The notes below the pieces were generated by a model. The model was not told the DNA's origin. It saw only the letters and a program-made list of their open reading frames with translations, and ran no database searches. The translations under genes were made by a program, and so were the position numbers. Source: Deltaproteobacteria bacterium (GTDB taxonomy: Bacteria > Desulfobacterota_E > Deferrimicrobia > Deferrimicrobiales > Deferrimicrobiaceae). Taken from it: DNA of 8,538 nt. Position 1 is the stretch's first letter, and each line of letters opens with the position of its first letter. Where the stretch lies: the NCBI GenBank assembly GCA_023489025.1, contig JAMDCN010000109.1, positions 1 to 8,538 on the forward strand, read 5' to 3'. This document shows, piece by piece, positions 1 to 6,696 of this stretch.

Positions 1-1
1 C

Positions 2-577
2 GAGACGCTCTACTTCTCCAGGGAGAGGACCCCCGCGTTCCTCGTCACCAACCTGAACAGCGAGATCCGCGAGGCGCTGTCGATGTTCCGGGAGGACCTC
101 GAGGAGGCCCGGATCTCGACGGTGATCGATCTCTCCCCGGACCTCCCCGTCATCTCCGTGGATCCGGACCAGCTGCGGCAGGTGCTGTGGAACCTCGTCT
201 CCAACGCCATCCAGGCGATGGGGGGAAGCGGCACCCTCACGGTCGCCACGCGCCCCGCCCTCCCCGAGGAGGGGACCGGCGTGGTTTTCCAGGTGAGCGA
301 CACCGGCGGCGGGATCCCGCACGACGTGGTGCACAACATCTTCAATCCGTTCTTCACCACGAAGGCGAAGGGGACCGGCCTCGGGCTTCCCATCGTCCAC
401 GCCATCGTCGAGAAGCACGGCGGGACAATCCATCTGGACAACCGGGAGGGGGCCGGTGTAACCTTCTCGGTCTTCCTCCCCCTTTTCCCGAAGGAGGCGG
501 GGACCGGGGAGCGGATCCTCGAGCAACTTCGCAAGGGCGGGACGAATGGAAACGGATCGACGGCGAATCAGGGATAA
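2..577 (+). CDS. Sensor histidine kinase, C-terminal ATPase part (5' end outside window)
   Basis: This is the catalytic end of a two-component sensor kinase; 191 residues are visible and the frame is open to the window edge. The GHKL ATPase fold shows its motifs in order: the N box (LRQVLWNLVSNAIQAM, Asn near visible residue 68), the G1 box (VSDTGGGIP, about 99-107), the F box (NPFFTTK) and the G2 box (GTGLGLPIV, about 124-132). The phosphoaccepting His box and any sensor domain lie upstream, so stimulus and partner are unknown. The spacing of FFTTKAKGTGLGLPIV is typical of NtrB-like and PAS-containing kinases of the HisKA class (family knowledge). The residues after the fold end in a loose Gly/Asn-rich tail. 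The last 32 bp overlap mqnE in another frame, suggesting co-transcription. I see no response regulator in the window. Confidence 0.93.
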   Translation, partial: ETLYFSRERTPAFLVTNLNSEIREALSMFREDLEEARISTVIDLSPDLPVISVDPDQLRQVLWNLVSNAIQAMGGSGTLTVATRPALPEEGTGVVFQVSDTGGGIPHDVVHNIFNPFFTTKAKGTGLGLPIVHAIVEKHGGTIHLDNREGAGVTFSVFLPLFPKEAGTGERILEQLRKGGTNGNGSTANQG

Positions 578-1643
578 GGTCGAGGCGGGGGAGCGGCTGT
601 CGGAGGCCGACGCGCTCGCGCTCTATCGCGCGCGGGACATCCTCGCCGTCGGCGAGATGGCGGCCCTGGCGAACCGACGGGCGAACGGCGACCGCGTCTA
701 CTTCATCGTCAACCGGCACGTGAACCCGACGAACATCTGCGTGAACCGGTGCAGGTTCTGCGCGTTCAGCAAGGGGAAGGACGATCCCCTCGCGTACACG
801 ATGACGATGGACGAGATCCTTCGCCGGGCGGAAGAGGCCCGGGAGCAGCGGGCCACGGAACTTCACATCGTCGGGGGGTTGCACCCGGACCTCCCCTTCG
901 ACTTCTACCTGGCGATGCTGCGCTCCCTGCGGGAACGGTTTCCCTCCCTGCACGTCCAGGCGTTCACGGCCGTGGAGATCGATTATTTCCGGAAGATCAC
1001 CGGGCTTCCGCTGGCCGAAGTGATCGCGCAATTGAAGGATGCGGGGCTCGGATCCCTTCCCGGCGGCGGGGCGGAGATCTTCGCCCCGGAGATCCGGAAC
1101 GAAATCTGTCCCGAGAAGATTTCGGGGGAACGGTGGCTCGAGGTGATGGAGGCGGTCCACGCGGCGGGGCTTCGCAGCAACGCCACGATGCTGTACGGCC
1201 ACGTGGAGACCCTGGAGTCGCGGGTGGACCACCTGCGGCGCCTGCGGGAGTTGCAGGACCGCACCGGCGGGTTCCAGTCGTTCATCCCCCTGGCGTTCCA
1301 CCCGAAGAACACGGAGATCGCCAAGGGGTACACCACGGGGCTCGAAGACCTGCTCGCGCTGGCGGTGGCGCGGCTCTACCTCGACAACTTCCGCCACATC
1401 AAGTCGTTCTGGATCATGGTGGGACCGAAGCTGGCGCAGATCTCCCTCCACTTCGGGGTGGACGACATCGACGGGACCGTGGTCGAGGAGAAGATCACCC
1501 ACGCGGCCGGCGCGCAGGCGGGGCAGGAGATGTCCGTCGCCGAGCTGGTGACGATGATCCGGCAGGCGGGGAAGATCCCCGTCGAGCGGGACACCCTCTA
1601 CAACGTGGTCCGCGAGTGGCCGGCGGAAGGCTCCCCGGCGTGA
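546..1643 (+). CDS. mqnE: Aminofutalosine synthase MqnE (radical SAM)
   Basis: MqnE joins the enolpyruvyl group of 3-[(1-carboxyvinyl)oxy]benzoate to SAM-derived adenosine, giving aminofutalosine, in the futalosine pathway to menaquinone. The 365-residue protein has the radical SAM cluster motif CX3CX2C at Cys65, Cys69 and Cys72 (NICVNRCRFCAF). It also has GGLHPDLPF (110-118), the glycine-rich PGGGAEIF (172-179) and FHPKNT (251-256), which I associate with MqnE rather than MqnC. The length is normal for the family. The ATG at 546 is chosen because the N-terminal KVEAGERLSEADALALY segment matches the usual family start; the upstream GGGCGGGA is only a moderate ribosome site. The start overlaps the end of the kinase gene, and the stop overlaps the methyltransferase start (GTGA). 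It belongs with mqnC, from which it is separated by the restriction-modification pair. MqnE versus MqnC is assigned from motifs alone. Confidence 0.93.
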   Translation: METDRRRIRDKVEAGERLSEADALALYRARDILAVGEMAALANRRANGDRVYFIVNRHVNPTNICVNRCRFCAFSKGKDDPLAYTMTMDEILRRAEEAREQRATELHIVGGLHPDLPFDFYLAMLRSLRERFPSLHVQAFTAVEIDYFRKITGLPLAEVIAQLKDAGLGSLPGGGAEIFAPEIRNEICPEKISGERWLEVMEAVHAAGLRSNATMLYGHVETLESRVDHLRRLRELQDRTGGFQSFIPLAFHPKNTEIAKGYTTGLEDLLALAVARLYLDNFRHIKSFWIMVGPKLAQISLHFGVDDIDGTVVEEKITHAAGAQAGQEMSVAELVTMIRQAGKIPVERDTLYNVVREWPAEGSPA

Positions 1644-2929
1644 CGACTTCCCACAAAATCATCATTAGCGATTCGCGGTGGATGAAAGAACTACCGGACC
1701 GGTCCGTCCATCTTGTGGTGACTTCGCCGCCGTACTGGCAGCTGAAGGATTATGGGAACGAGGAGCAGATCGGGTTCAACGACAGTTACGAGGATTACAT
1801 CAATAACCTGAACCTGGTGTGGAGCGAATGCCACCGGGTTTTGCATGACGGATGCCGCTTGTGCGTCAATATCGGCGACCAATTCGCGAGATCGGTTTAC
1901 TACGGCAGATACAAGATCATCCCGATCCGGACGGAGATCATCAAATTCTGCGAAGCCGCCGGGTTTGATTACATGGGTGCCGTCATCTGGCAGAAAGTGA
2001 CGACCTGCAATACCACCGGCGGCGCGACGATCATGGGATCTTTCCCCTATCCGAGGAACGGTATTCTCAAGCTGGATTACGAGTTCATCCTGATCTTCAA
2101 GAAGTATGGTGTCTCCCCGAAAGTGACGGAAGATGTGAAGGAACAATCGAAGATGTCGACGGAGGAGTGGAACCAGTATTTTGCCGGGCATTGGAATTTC
2201 CCGGGGGAGAAACAGGACAGACATCTTGCGATGTTCCCCGAAGAATTGCCGAAACGTCTCATCCGGATGTTCAGCTTCGTGGGAGACACGGTGCTCGATC
2301 CGTTCCTCGGGAGCGGCACGACCTCGCTTGTGGCGAAAAAACTGAACCGAAACTCGGTCGGATACGAAATCAACAAGGATTATGTTCCAACGATCATCTC
2401 GAAGGTAGGGGGCGATCAGAGGGACCTTTTCCGCGATTGTCGGATCGAGGTGGCAAGCGCCGACCGCAGGGAACCGGGCTACGCGGAAAGGGTAAATGCG
2501 CTGCCCTATAAATTTGCGGATCCGGTTCGCTTCGACAAAAAAGTCGACCCCAGAAAAATCCGGTTCGGATCGAAGATCGACGGATCGGAAACCGGAAGGG
2601 AATCGTTCTTCACGGTTGCTGAGGTCGTTTCGCCAGAGACACTGACGTTAAGCAACGGCGTGTCTATCCGCCTGATCGGGATCAAGGAGGATCCCGGGAC
2701 AAGGGTGGAGGCGATGCGGTTCCTGCGGGAAAAGACCGACGGGCAGAAGGTGTATCTCAAATACGATGCCTTGAAGTATGACGACGAACGCCGCCTCATG
2801 TGTTACCTCTACCTGTCGAACAAGACCTTCATCAATGCGCACCTCATAAAAAGCGGCTTGGTCGGTGTGGAGACGGGCTACGATTTCCGGTACAGGACAA
2901 AATTCCTTTCCCAAAAAGAAGCTGTGTAA
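1640..2929 (+). CDS. Beta-class DNA methyltransferase with C-terminal SNase-like domain
   Basis: This 429-residue protein is a SAM-dependent DNA methyltransferase. The catalytic motif TSPPYW (28-33) precedes the SAM-binding motif DPFLGSGTT (220-228), the order of the beta class (N6_N4_Mtase family). SPPY rather than DPPY favours N4-cytosine as product. Paired with the MjaI-like endonuclease next door, it is probably the protecting enzyme for CTAG; that is inference from the known M.MjaI and M.MthZI systems. From about residue 322 the protein resembles the staphylococcal nuclease fold: VSIRLIGI, then DDERRLMCYLYL, then FINAHLIKSGL. Counterparts of nuclease Arg35 (Arg344) and Arg87 (Arg385) are present, but the Asp40/Glu43 positions read Lys349 and Pro352, so nuclease activity is doubtful. 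The GTG at 1640 is chosen because GGAAGG lies 9 bases upstream and the frame before it only shadows mqnE. GC content is lower than in the neighbours. Confidence 0.93.
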   Translation: MTTSHKIIISDSRWMKELPDRSVHLVVTSPPYWQLKDYGNEEQIGFNDSYEDYINNLNLVWSECHRVLHDGCRLCVNIGDQFARSVYYGRYKIIPIRTEIIKFCEAAGFDYMGAVIWQKVTTCNTTGGATIMGSFPYPRNGILKLDYEFILIFKKYGVSPKVTEDVKEQSKMSTEEWNQYFAGHWNFPGEKQDRHLAMFPEELPKRLIRMFSFVGDTVLDPFLGSGTTSLVAKKLNRNSVGYEINKDYVPTIISKVGGDQRDLFRDCRIEVASADRREPGYAERVNALPYKFADPVRFDKKVDPRKIRFGSKIDGSETGRESFFTVAEVVSPETLTLSNGVSIRLIGIKEDPGTRVEAMRFLREKTDGQKVYLKYDALKYDDERRLMCYLYLSNKTFINAHLIKSGLVGVETGYDFRYRTKFLSQKEAV

Positions 2930-3558
2930 TGGCAAAGGAATGGATTCTGAACCAAGCAAATATGCGATGGGGTTTGACCCGGAAAAGCAAGGTCGGTGCT
3001 GTGGCAGATTTGATAAGGAAGTGTTCGCCAAAAGAATTGGCGGATTGGGAAGATTATTACTATAAAAACGGTTCTTCGAAAGACCATCTTGAAAATCTGG
3101 GGAGGATTCTTTTTGTCAAGGTTTCAGAAATCTGCAAGGCGGAAATCGAAGATGTTACGGAAAAGGATTGTATTGATTTCATTGCCGATCTGGTGATCCG
3201 CCGCACATATGACGGATATCAATCGGAAATCCAGACGATCTACGGACAATTGCAGGAATTGCTTGGCGTGGCGGTGAAACCCGCACCCGATGAGTGGGAC
3301 AGGGGATATAACGTCGATTTTTTCATCGAGATCAACGGGAAGTGTATCGGGCTTCAGATCAAACCCGCCGGGTATGCATATATCCCCCAGATCATCGCTG
3401 AAGCAGGGTTTCAAAAAAAGACGCACGAGAAGTTCTCACAGAAATACGGTGGGAAGGTCTTTTACATCATCTCCATCGCTGAAGAGAAAAAGAAAGTGAT
3501 TCACAACAAGGAAGTGGTCGAGGAGATCCGGAGAGAGATCGAAAGGTTGAGCAATTGA
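2929..3558 (+). CDS. MjaI-family type II restriction endonuclease (probable CTAG cutter)
   Basis: I recognise the 209-residue protein as a MjaI-type restriction enzyme (RE_MjaI family). The opening MAKEWILNQANMRWGL, the RKCSPKELADWEDYYY block (30-45), the GYQSEIQTIYGQLQE block and DEWDRGYNVDFF all fit. MjaI itself cuts CTAG (family knowledge); specificity here is inferred. A plausible PD-(D/E)XK core is Asp130 (NVDFFI), followed after a beta hairpin by Gln143-Ile-Lys145 (LQIKP). This is the QxK variant known from Mrr-like nucleases. The ATG at 2929 shares its A with the methyltransferase stop (TAATG), so translation is probably coupled and the methylase is made first. The stop overlaps the TTG start of mqnC. 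Sampled GC is about 42-45%, the lowest in the window, supporting recent transfer. The frame is intact, so the enzyme may be active. Confidence 0.88.
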   Translation: MAKEWILNQANMRWGLTRKSKVGAVADLIRKCSPKELADWEDYYYKNGSSKDHLENLGRILFVKVSEICKAEIEDVTEKDCIDFIADLVIRRTYDGYQSEIQTIYGQLQELLGVAVKPAPDEWDRGYNVDFFIEINGKCIGLQIKPAGYAYIPQIIAEAGFQKKTHEKFSQKYGGKVFYIISIAEEKKKVIHNKEVVEEIRREIERLSN

Positions 3559-4676
3559 TCTCCGGGAGCACGAACTCTTCCTCGGAGTCGTGGAAGGATG
3601 CGTTCGTCCGGGCGGATCGGAATTCCGTCACGATCGAAGAGGGGGTCCGGCTGCTGCGGGAGGCGCCGCTGTTCGAACTCGGGCGTGCGGCAGACGTGGT
3701 CCGGCATCGGCTTCACCCGGATGGTATCGTCACCTACATCGTCGACCGGAACATCAACTACACGAACGTCTGTTCCTGCGGCTGCTCCTTCTGCGCCTTC
3801 TACCGGAAGAAGGACGCTACCGACGCCTATGTCCTGTCGGAAGAGGAGCTTTCCGCGAAGATCGTGGAGACGATCGCGGCGGGCGGGGTCCGCGTGCTGC
3901 TGCAGGGGGGGCTGCACCCCGACTGGGGGATCGCCGAGGCGGTCCGGCTGGTGCGGGCGGTGAAGCGGCACCCGATCCTGTTGCACGGATTCTCCCCTCC
4001 GGAAGTGTGGCACTTCGCGCATCAGTCGAAGATGACGATCGGAGAGGTGATCGCGCGTCTGAAGGATGCCGGCCTCGATTCGATCCCCGGCGGCGGGGCG
4101 GAGATCCTCGACGACGAGGTGCGGCGCCGTATCAGCCCGAAGAAGATCGGCTGGGAGCAGTGGGCGGCGGTGATGCGCGAGGCCCATCGACAGGGGCTTC
4201 GGTCCTCCGCGACGATGATGTTCGGCAGCGTGGAGAGCCCCGAGGCGATCGTCGCCCACCTGCTGCGGGTCCGCGCCCTCCAGGAAGAGACGGGGGGCTT
4301 CACGGCGTTCATCCCGTGGGTGTTCCAGTCGGGGAACACCGAGTTGTCGCGCGACCCGCGGTTCGGGGAGGCGTCGGCCCGGGGATTCGGCCACGCCGTC
4401 GGGTACCTGCGGGTGCTGGCCCTGTCGCGGATCCTGTTGCCGAACGTCCCGACCGTCCAGGTGTCGTGGGTGACGATGGGGGCGAAGGTGGCGCAGATCG
4501 GGCTCTTCTTCGGCGCGGACGACTTCGGCAGCACGATGATGGAGGAGAACGTCGTCGCCTCCGCGGGGGTCTCCTTCCGGATGTCCGAGGAGGAGATCGT
4601 CGCCACGATCCGGGACGCGGGATTCACCGCCGCGCGGCGGGACACACATCTCCTTTTTGGAAATGGAGCGGCTTGA
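3555..4676 (+). CDS. mqnC: Cyclic dehypoxanthine futalosine synthase MqnC (radical SAM)
   Basis: MqnC cyclises dehypoxanthine futalosine, the step after the nucleoside hydrolase (MqnB or equivalent) in the futalosine pathway. The 373-residue protein shows [13 protein letters not shown] leading into CX3CX2C at Cys73, Cys77 and Cys80, with one extra Cys75 between. It also has [12 protein letters not shown] (115-126), PGGGAEIL (178-185) and [15 protein letters not shown] near the C-terminus, all typical of MqnC. The only reasonable start is TTG at 3555, overlapping the endonuclease stop (TTGA), with GAAAGG 8 bases upstream. No ATG or GTG lies in frame near the N-terminus. The first dozen residues ([12 protein letters not shown]) look non-conserved, possibly remade when the restriction genes arrived. 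High GC resumes at once. MqnA, MqnB and MqnD are not in the window. Confidence 0.93.
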
Positions 4677-4680
4677 CAAG

Positions 4681-5958
4681 ATGCTCGACCTGAAATTCGT
4701 CCGGGAAAATATCGCGATCGTGGAGGAGGCGCTGCGGAAGCGCCGTTCGTCGCTCTCCCTGGAAGGTTTCGTGGCGCTGGACAAGGCGCGCCGGGAACGG
4801 CTCGTCGAAGTCGAGGGGATGCGGGCGGAGCGCAACGCGGCTTCCGAGGAGATCGGCCGCCTGCGCCGTGAGAAGAAGGACGCGTCGGAGCTCATGGAGC
4901 GGATGAAGGCGCTCTCGACCCGGCTCAAGGAGGCGGAAGGGGAACTCCCGGAGATCGAGCGGAGGATGGAGGAGTTCCTCCTCGTCCTCCCGAACATGCC
5001 GGATCCGTCGGTCCCGGACGGTGCGGGGGAGGAGGACAACCCCGTCGTGCGGACGTGGGGGACTCCGCGGACCTTCCATTTCCCGGTCAAGGACCACGTG
5101 GACCTCGGCGCGGCGCTGGATATCCTCGATTTCGACCGGGCCGCCAAGATCGCCGGGGGCCGGTTCTGCCTGTCGAAGGGGGCGGGGGCGCTGCTCGAGC
5201 GGGCGCTCATCAACTTCATGCTCGACGTCCACACGCGGGAGCACGGGTATCTCGAGGTCCTTCCTCCGTTCATGGCGAACAGCGCGTCGTTCCTCGGCAC
5301 CGGGCAGCTCCCCAAATTCGAGGAGGATCTCTTCCGGGTGGCGGGGACCGACTACTTCCTCGTCCCCACCGCCGAAGTCCCCGTGACGAACATCGTGCGG
5401 GACGAGATCCTCGCGGCCGGGACACTTCCCCTGAAGATGACGGCGTACACCCCGTGCTTCCGCGCGGAGGCGGGCTCCTACGGGAAGGATACCCGGGGGA
5501 TGATCCGGCAGCACCAGTTCAACAAGGTCGAGCTGGTGAAGATCTGCCGCCCGGAGGAGTCCGCGCAGGAGCTGGAGAAGCTCACCGCCGACGCCGAGGA
5601 GATCCTGCGGCGCCTCGGCCTGCCGTATCGCGTGGTGACGCTGTGCACGGGAGACATCGGCTTCTCCTCCGCGAAGACGTACGACATCGAGGTCTGGGTC
5701 CCCTCGCAGGGCCGGTACCGGGAGATCTCCTCCTGCAGCACCTTCACCGACTTCCAGGCGCGCCGCGCGAAGATCCGCTTCCGGGAAGGGGTGTCGGGAA
5801 AGACGCGGCTGGCCCACACCCTGAACGGGTCGGGGCTGGCGGTCGGACGGACGGTCGTCGCGATCCTCGAAAATTACCAGCGAGAGGACGGCACGGTCGA
5901 TATCCCCGAAGCGCTTCGCCCCTACATGGGCGGACTGGAACGGATCGCAAAAAGGTAG
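4681..5958 (+). CDS. serS: Seryl-tRNA synthetase
   Basis: SerS charges tRNA-Ser (and tRNA-Sec) with serine in the cytoplasm. The 425-residue protein has the normal bacterial length. It begins with the conserved [10 protein letters not shown] and continues into a charged alpha-helical arm (about 25-100) that reads as the tRNA-binding coiled coil. The class II core follows: [12 protein letters not shown] (226-237), motif 2 starting [12 protein letters not shown] at 260, and motif 3 [19 protein letters not shown] starting at 382. I choose the ATG at 4681, although TTG at 4657 and ATG at 4663 are in frame upstream, because MLDLKF is the usual family start and GGAG sits 12 bases before it. Only four bases separate it from mqnC, so it probably belongs to the same transcript. 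The downstream repeat hairpin may end that transcript. Confidence 0.97.
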
Positions 5959-6060: not shown

Positions 6061-6696
6061 ATGGAGGGGTTCGGAAGCCGGACTGTAGCGACTCTCACCG
6101 GTCTGTCTCTGCGTCAGATCGATTATTGGGATCACACTCATTTCATCAAGCCATCCCTGATGGGGTCTTCGGGTAAAGGGACACGGCGCTTGTATGATTT
6201 CATGGACCTTGTCCAGTTCCGCGTCGCCGCGTCCCTTCGGTCGCAGGGAATCAGTCTTCAAAAAATCCGGAAATGCACCAACTACCTCCGGAAACAACGA
6301 GTAAACCTTGAACGTCCGCTTGTCTCCCTGAAGTTCCTGACGGACGGAGAATCGATATTTGTCCTGACATCCGACCCGAAAGTCGTGATGGATACACTGA
6401 AGGAAGGCCAGTTGGTCTTTTCTCTCGGCATCGGGGAAATCCTGAAGGATCTGAAGGGTAAAGTGTCGCAGATAGGGAAGAAGCAAACGGTAATCGTGCG
6501 GGTAGGGAAGAGGCGGTTTACGGTGGTTCTTCATCACGATGTGGAAGATGGGGGGTATTGGGTGGAATGCCCGGAGTTGCCGGGATGCCTGTCCCAGGGG
6601 GACACGGTGGAAGAGACGCTGGAGATGATTCGTGATGCGATTCGCGGGCATCTTGCGGTGATGGGGAAGGAGACCCTTCGGCGGAAGACCGGCTGA
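6061..6696 (+). CDS. MerR-type HTH protein with C-terminal HicB-like domain
   Basis: The 211-residue protein appears to be a fused regulator. Residues about 5-78 look like a MerR winged helix-turn-helix: SRTVATLTGLSLRQIDYWDHTHFIKPS, then TRRLYDFMDLVQFRVAASLRSQGISLQKIRK. Residues about 85-140 (VSLKFLTDGESIFVLTSD, then LKEGQLVFSLGIGEIL) resemble the linker domain seen in MerR/DUF433-type antitoxins; this part is tentative. Residues about 150-207 match the HicB antitoxin fold (RRFTVVLHHD, GGYWVECPELPGCLSQGD, TVEETLEMIRDAIRGHL). It probably binds DNA and may neutralise or once have neutralised a HicA-type toxin, but no intact hicA follows. It has its own promoter and a strong ribosome site, and its sampled GC (about 47%) is lower than the housekeeping genes. 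It could be a solitary transcription factor, an orphan antitoxin, or an accidental gene fusion. The frame is continuous without frameshift signs. Confidence 0.85.
   Translation: MEGFGSRTVATLTGLSLRQIDYWDHTHFIKPSLMGSSGKGTRRLYDFMDLVQFRVAASLRSQGISLQKIRKCTNYLRKQRVNLERPLVSLKFLTDGESIFVLTSDPKVVMDTLKEGQLVFSLGIGEILKDLKGKVSQIGKKQTVIVRVGKRRFTVVLHHDVEDGGYWVECPELPGCLSQGDTVEETLEMIRDAIRGHLAVMGKETLRRKTG

Follow-up and report, generated by a model that had tools for sequence, protein, structure and literature searches.

Six genes are found in a row on the + strand of the window, that is, the whole stretch of 8,538 nucleotides that was analyzed: a histidine kinase fragment, mqnE, a methyltransferase gene (MT), a restriction endonuclease gene (RE), mqnC, and serS. 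The first (2..577, identified by PF02518 and its open reading frame) encodes the C-terminal part of a histidine kinase (HATPase_c) and overlaps mqnE by 32 nt. mqnE (546..1643) encodes aminofutalosine synthase (TIGR03700, 538.6 bits against a cut-off of 434.55), and mqnC (3555..4676) encodes cyclic dehypoxanthinyl futalosine synthase (TIGR03699, 455.9 bits against 428.1). Between them exist MT (1640..2929), which encodes a protein of 429 aa of the N4/N6 class, and RE (2929..3558), which encodes an MjaI-type restriction endonuclease of 209 aa. serS (4681..5958; PF00587 and PF02403) begins 4 nt after mqnC if its start is ATG 4681. The earlier note described a restriction-modification (RM) pair placed between mqnE and mqnC with three stop/start overlaps, and all three are exact when read from the sequence. 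The mqnE stop, TGA 1641-1643, overlaps GTG 1640, the opening codon of the MT frame, in GTGA (1640..1643); the MT stop, TAA 2927-2929, and the RE start, ATG 2929-2931, share TAATG (2927..2931); and the RE stop, TGA 3556-3558, overlaps the mqnC start in TTGA (3555..3558). In the mqnC frame, TTG 3555 is the single ATG, GTG, or TTG codon from the stop at 3480 up to position 3660, and the 14 N-terminal residues of this mqnC differ from the N-termini of its relatives. An in-frame GTG at 1616 is an alternative opening for MT; the gene calls of three homologs (P0122-P0124) use its equivalent.

The MT protein has a PF01555 domain (4e-45) followed by a staphylococcal nuclease (SNase)-like domain at approximately residues 321-429 (2600..2929), where PF00565 scores 23.1 bits against a cut-off of 21, a weak match that is over the threshold. 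In a 25-row alignment, TSPPYW (residues 28-33) is located ahead of DPFLGSGTT (220-228). SPPY before FxGxG is the beta order of methyltransferases. The protein adjoining the RE therefore has the beta motif order and may be of the N4-cytosine rather than the N6 type. Its nearest solved sequence is 2zie. The catalytic half resembles the methylase TTHA0409 in sequence and fold, in a region that is poorly predicted: the catalytic part of the AlphaFold model has a mean pLDDT of 55, and just the SNase-like part was used. In this latter part the pLDDT is 79-94 in blocks across residues 321-420, and Foldseek matches the C-terminal domain to staphylococcal nuclease (TMt about 0.74, E = 2e-7). A loss of the SNase catalytic residues, which seemed likely by eye, was dropped as a candidate, since phmmer gave no alignment to a nuclease.

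The RE protein matches PF09568 with 145 bits (cut-off 22.7; 2.5e-42). A control search for this family in 14 genomes gave a match in M. jannaschii alone. Residues D130, Q143, and K145 are invariant across 30 aligned rows. Fold matches are weak, with none at E ≤ 0.001; the first is the Hjc Holliday-junction resolvase (E = 4e-3, TMq 0.30). This match agrees with a PD-(D/E)XK fold. From its family, the pair is predicted to methylate CTAG and to cut unmethylated CTAG in incoming DNA. No CTAG is found in the window (2.8 expected) or in 17 kb of the relative G002 (4.4 expected). Four loci that lack the pair also have few CTAG sites (7 where 18.8 are expected). Avoidance of CTAG was therefore set aside as evidence, the counts being local and the relatives without the pair likewise poor in CTAG.

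The type II systems MjaI, MthZI, and BfaI, which act on CTAG with N4-cytosine methylation, likewise consist of a PF01555 methyltransferase and a PF09568 endonuclease. The Methanothermobacter plasmid pFZ1 encodes a methyltransferase 35% identical to that of the window over residues 1-257, adjoining a gene annotated as 'MjaI family restriction endonuclease'. This system is presumably MthZI. While the two genes on pFZ1 converge, those of the window are co-directional and overlap. According to PMC5867850, characterized CTAG methyltransferases are 303-364 aa long, compared with 429 aa for the MT of the window with its SNase-like tail. The PADLOC model MTase_II PDLC03259 (423 positions) matches this MT over residues 3-424 with 631 bits, so the fused MT-SNase architecture is already catalogued; no difference in architecture from the model was seen, and it is the genomic site that is particular. 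A full-text literature search found no paper on the MT-SNase fusion.

The pair differs in composition from the genes around it. GC content is 0.668 in mqnE, 0.533 in MT, 0.457 in RE, 0.669 in mqnC, and 0.667 in serS, and at 4-fold sites it is 0.95, 0.79, 0.60, 0.90, and 0.93, respectively. The drop across the pair and the return in mqnC described earlier are thus borne out by measurement (67% to 53% in MT, 46% in RE, and back to 67%). A separate promoter and terminator around the pair had been named as findings that would refute the earlier reading. The terminator search found no terminator-like site on the + strand in positions 1-5958, and the consensus scan, on which the promoter result rests, found no promoter-like match directly upstream of the pair. 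Weak + strand promoter-like matches exist at 2532 (inside MT) and 3010 (inside RE); in the whole window, on both strands, four matches were found against 1.5 expected. A second gene of lower GC content (0.547) is located between serS and the gene that follows, at 6061-6696, and encodes an HTH of the MerR type together with a HicB-like domain. It has no tblastn match at 1e-10 in the relatives L001-L020, several of whose contigs end before this place.

A scan with mqnE kept 80 of 151 confirmed loci, and the nearest of these pointed to a family of 24 genomes. Of these genomes, 20 have an mqnE-mqnC junction that can be read (in one case across a contig break); those of G009, G018, G019, and G023 cannot. 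Eighteen of the 20 readable junctions lack the pair, and two are filled. The same pair in all close relatives, which according to the earlier note would argue against transfer, is therefore not what the comparison gives. Could the pair nevertheless be ancestral to the whole family and lost in most members? That the same junction is filled in two sublineages would agree with this. Of the 16 tree rows outside a clade of eight, however, 14 are empty and two unreadable, their genomes have no full-length match, and the low GC content of the pair also speaks against great age in the family; this already disfavored history is highly improbable.

Of the 18 empty junctions, 14 have the mqnC start within the mqnE stop codon, through GTGA or ATGA in 13 and TTGA in G013. 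As for the other four, mqnC starts with ATG right after the stop in G017 and slightly downstream in G020, and spacers exist in G015 and G022. The GTGA between mqnE and MT in the window is at the same site as this native overlap. Five of the 18 relatives with an empty junction have ACG (Thr) as codon 2 of mqnC, and codon 2 of MT in the window is also ACG. Among 112 MT homologs codon 2 is Lys in 78 and Thr in five, all of the latter in the clade that carries the insert. Position and second codon together suggest that MT took over mqnC's own start site. The earlier note called it unusual that the pair landed without breaking translational coupling; the prevalence of the native overlap indicates that the coupling was inherited and did not survive by luck.

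The two spacers were considered separately. In G015 (L131:195-385) about 170 nt of GC-rich sequence with an inverted-repeat look lies between mqnE and mqnC; it has no similarity to the pair and was rejected as its remnant. In G022 (L104:1385-1470) the spacer follows a shortened mqnE and reads TTG ACA ACT TCT CAT (MTTSH), the same residues as in the MT N-terminus. Its score was reached in 5 of 500 shuffles, with 12 comparisons made, and it was not counted as a scar. mqnC is downstream of mqnE in 39 of the 80 loci, in 26 within about 150 nt. Ten ORFs between the two genes outside the family comprise six VitK2_biosynth, one citrate transporter, one DHBP synthase, and two unnamed. As none of these ten was named as a defense gene, the junction was rejected as a general defense hotspot.

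The arrangement is more than chance, since it recurs in G024 and, in decayed form, in G002. Both carry the insert at the same base position, so the single landing implied earlier does not hold. The genomes of all close relatives were assembled from metagenomes; the G002 contig has 4.3x coverage, and a contig break interrupts the pair in G024. G024 has a full MT (81%) and an RE split at residue 105/106, with residues 1-105 at one contig end and 106-209 at the start of a second contig that leads to mqnC. In G002, MT residues 1-319 (94%) are joined in frame to the last RE residues, and the RE stop is kept before mqnC; a single deletion would therefore have taken out the SNase-like domain together with almost the whole of RE. 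Between the window and G002, MT is 94% identical in protein and 84% identical at 4-fold sites, which is what purifying selection leaves. In P0122-P0124, a prefix of eight residues (VAGG...G) precedes the MT start. Since this prefix matches the mqnE 3' end read in the MT frame, these homologs probably sit at the same junction. In methyltransferases of the MT family at L176, L177, and L178 (G239, G185, and G401), the match ends near residue 314-321, at the boundary of the G002 deletion, and the SNase-like tail may therefore be optional. A second, different methyltransferase, 35-40% identical over approximately residues 1-282, is found at L134 (G024:C135), L135 (G002:C7), and L136 (G019:C194).

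In G024, CATGACG is present at the MT start and at an mqnC start codon, three of the bases being the start codon itself, as a short target duplication would leave it. In the window the second start of this type, that of mqnC, is gone, and TTG 3555 is the usable in-frame start. No repeat of 12 nt or longer bounds the insert in positions 1540-3720 of the window. Five pairs of inverted repeats were found, none of them bounding it, and no transposase or integrase gene is beside the pair, which is flanked by mqnE and mqnC. The term "mobile island" used previously is thus too strong for two genes between mqnE and mqnC with neither a mobility gene nor a bounding repeat.

Homologs of the pair are widely spread. 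At least 8000 candidates were obtained for MT and 4094 homologs were scored for RE. Among the 120 matches listed per gene, named sources include several bacterial phyla as well as archaea, with identities of about 70-77%, indicating wide transfer. MT matches at E of 1e-60 or better occur in 61 of 395 phylum genomes drawn; the RE family occurs in 1 of 26 genomes of the class. With coverage of 80% of the query required, none of 225 plasmid records and one of 500 phage records (24% identity) matched. Eight loci come from viral contigs, five of these at 57-75%. The claim of acquisition by transfer stands, given the 18 of 20 empty junctions, the rarity of the RE family in the class, and the divergent GC content. 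That the pair came from outside the host class is well supported by the empty junctions, by kin scattered over many phyla, and by the difference in composition. Among 28 other phylum loci of MT, three have a co-directional frame of at least 100 codons ending within 30 nt of the MT start, and a single one of the upstream frames overlaps (L164, by 17 nt). In 15 loci with a detectable MjaI-type RE, one frame starts within 30 nt after RE (L155, 101 codons). None of the 28 has close-packed frames on both sides. Applied to the window, the same rule recovers its two overlaps, and in G024 it recovers the upstream one. As far as this sample shows, seamless embedding therefore appears to be a feature of the insert clade and not of the MT family.

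A host tree of mqnE, mqnC, and serS (15 rows, with G023 left out) gives the topology ((G024,(G006,G022)),((G001,G015),(G002,window))), with modest support for G002 plus the window (84/82). Placing the occupied trio in one clade is rejected by the three host genes (p = 8e-6) and by mqnE alone (0.0025); neither mqnC alone (0.107) nor serS alone (0.087) rejects it. Since the occupied genomes are not one clade, the insert was lost, exchanged, or acquired more than once, and a single insertion requires at least two losses or exchange. In the MT tree the window, G002, G024, and P0121-P0129 form one clade (99/99), from which G024 branches first. With three shared taxa, the agreement with the host tree, in which G024 is also first, is weak.

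At 4-fold sites, MT divergence between the window and G024 is consistent with the host genes (t = 0.91 against 0.83). For the window and G002, it is less than half that of the hosts (0.14 against 0.32), and forcing the two to agree costs 5.7 lnL (122 sites). An MT that postdates the split of its hosts argues against purely vertical inheritance. For RE, the window-G024 comparison would need an ancestor with almost no G or C at 4-fold sites (57 sites), and third-position identity is 0.38-0.53 in RE blocks against 0.47-0.78 in blocks of mqnE, mqnC, and serS. A free equilibrium GC content gains about 4.4 lnL each in MT and RE, and also 4.3 in the native mqnC.

These data bear on two other histories. 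Related MjaI-type pairs may have inserted independently at this junction at least twice, in the G024 line and in the window/G002 line, the overlap being a preferred target. The patchy host distribution, the greater divergence of RE than of the hosts, and the CATGACG at both insert ends in G024 all agree with this; the single MT clade with G024 first, the window-G024 MT divergence equal to that of the hosts, and the failure to find a recombinase or end repeats do not, and we regard repeated insertion as unlikely. Alternatively, one insertion occurred in one lineage and the occupied mqnE-mqnC segment then moved between species by homologous recombination, which would be the main cause of the patchiness. 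The young window-G002 MT and the patchy distribution are what such transfer would produce. The mqnE and mqnC flanks of the insert, however, have no clear rise in identity between these two genomes, and between the window and G024 the MT has the same age as the hosts, so that segment transfer as the main cause is possible but doubtful.

One old entry followed by losses and some exchange among close lineages fits best, although the RE divergence is strained under a single entry. On the whole we consider it likely that a type II pair entered from outside the class at the mqnC start, and was then kept, decayed, or lost, and probably exchanged. A pair of the MjaI (CTAG) kind would have reached this group of bacteria from outside the class and inserted exactly at the mqnC start codon. 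MT would then be translated from the pre-existing mqnE stop/start overlap, as its position and codon 2 suggest, RE would be coupled to MT through TAATG, and mqnC would be restarted from the RE end, with all genes presumably on a single transcript from the kinase gene to serS. The insert would have persisted in the window and G024 and is missing in G001, G015, G006, and G022; in G002 one deletion would have taken RE and the SNase domain and kept the MT frame; and exchange between close lineages probably followed. A bolder form of this proposal, in which such pairs repeatedly target a core-operon stop/start overlap, duplicate its start codon, and capture and pass on translation, in which loss is confined to deletions that leave the reading relay open (G002 being an example), and in which restriction is wired to quinone synthesis, is distinctly improbable on the present evidence.

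In PMC3031569, RM systems are described as inserting with long, variable target duplications, and Furuta 2010 is cited for operons as being among the places where RM genes occur. Those systems likewise have empty and filled sites in close relatives and lack a transposase of their own. The present insert differs in that the duplication is at most 7 bp (in G024) and none is visible in the window, and in its exact use of a stop/start overlap. Literature searches turned up no description of this junction, nor any of RM genes together with mqnC. Because RM systems in operons have already been reported, the pair of the window is a well-documented new instance.

Three states of one junction, namely empty, with the pair present, and with RE deleted, exist in close relatives and make a natural series. 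This series suggests how a defense pair becomes established in a core operon and is reduced to a methyltransferase alone. From gene order it is predicted that restriction is tied to respiration. If expression is shared, phage defense would be regulated along with the quinone genes, and careless removal of the pair would be costly through a polar effect on mqnC.
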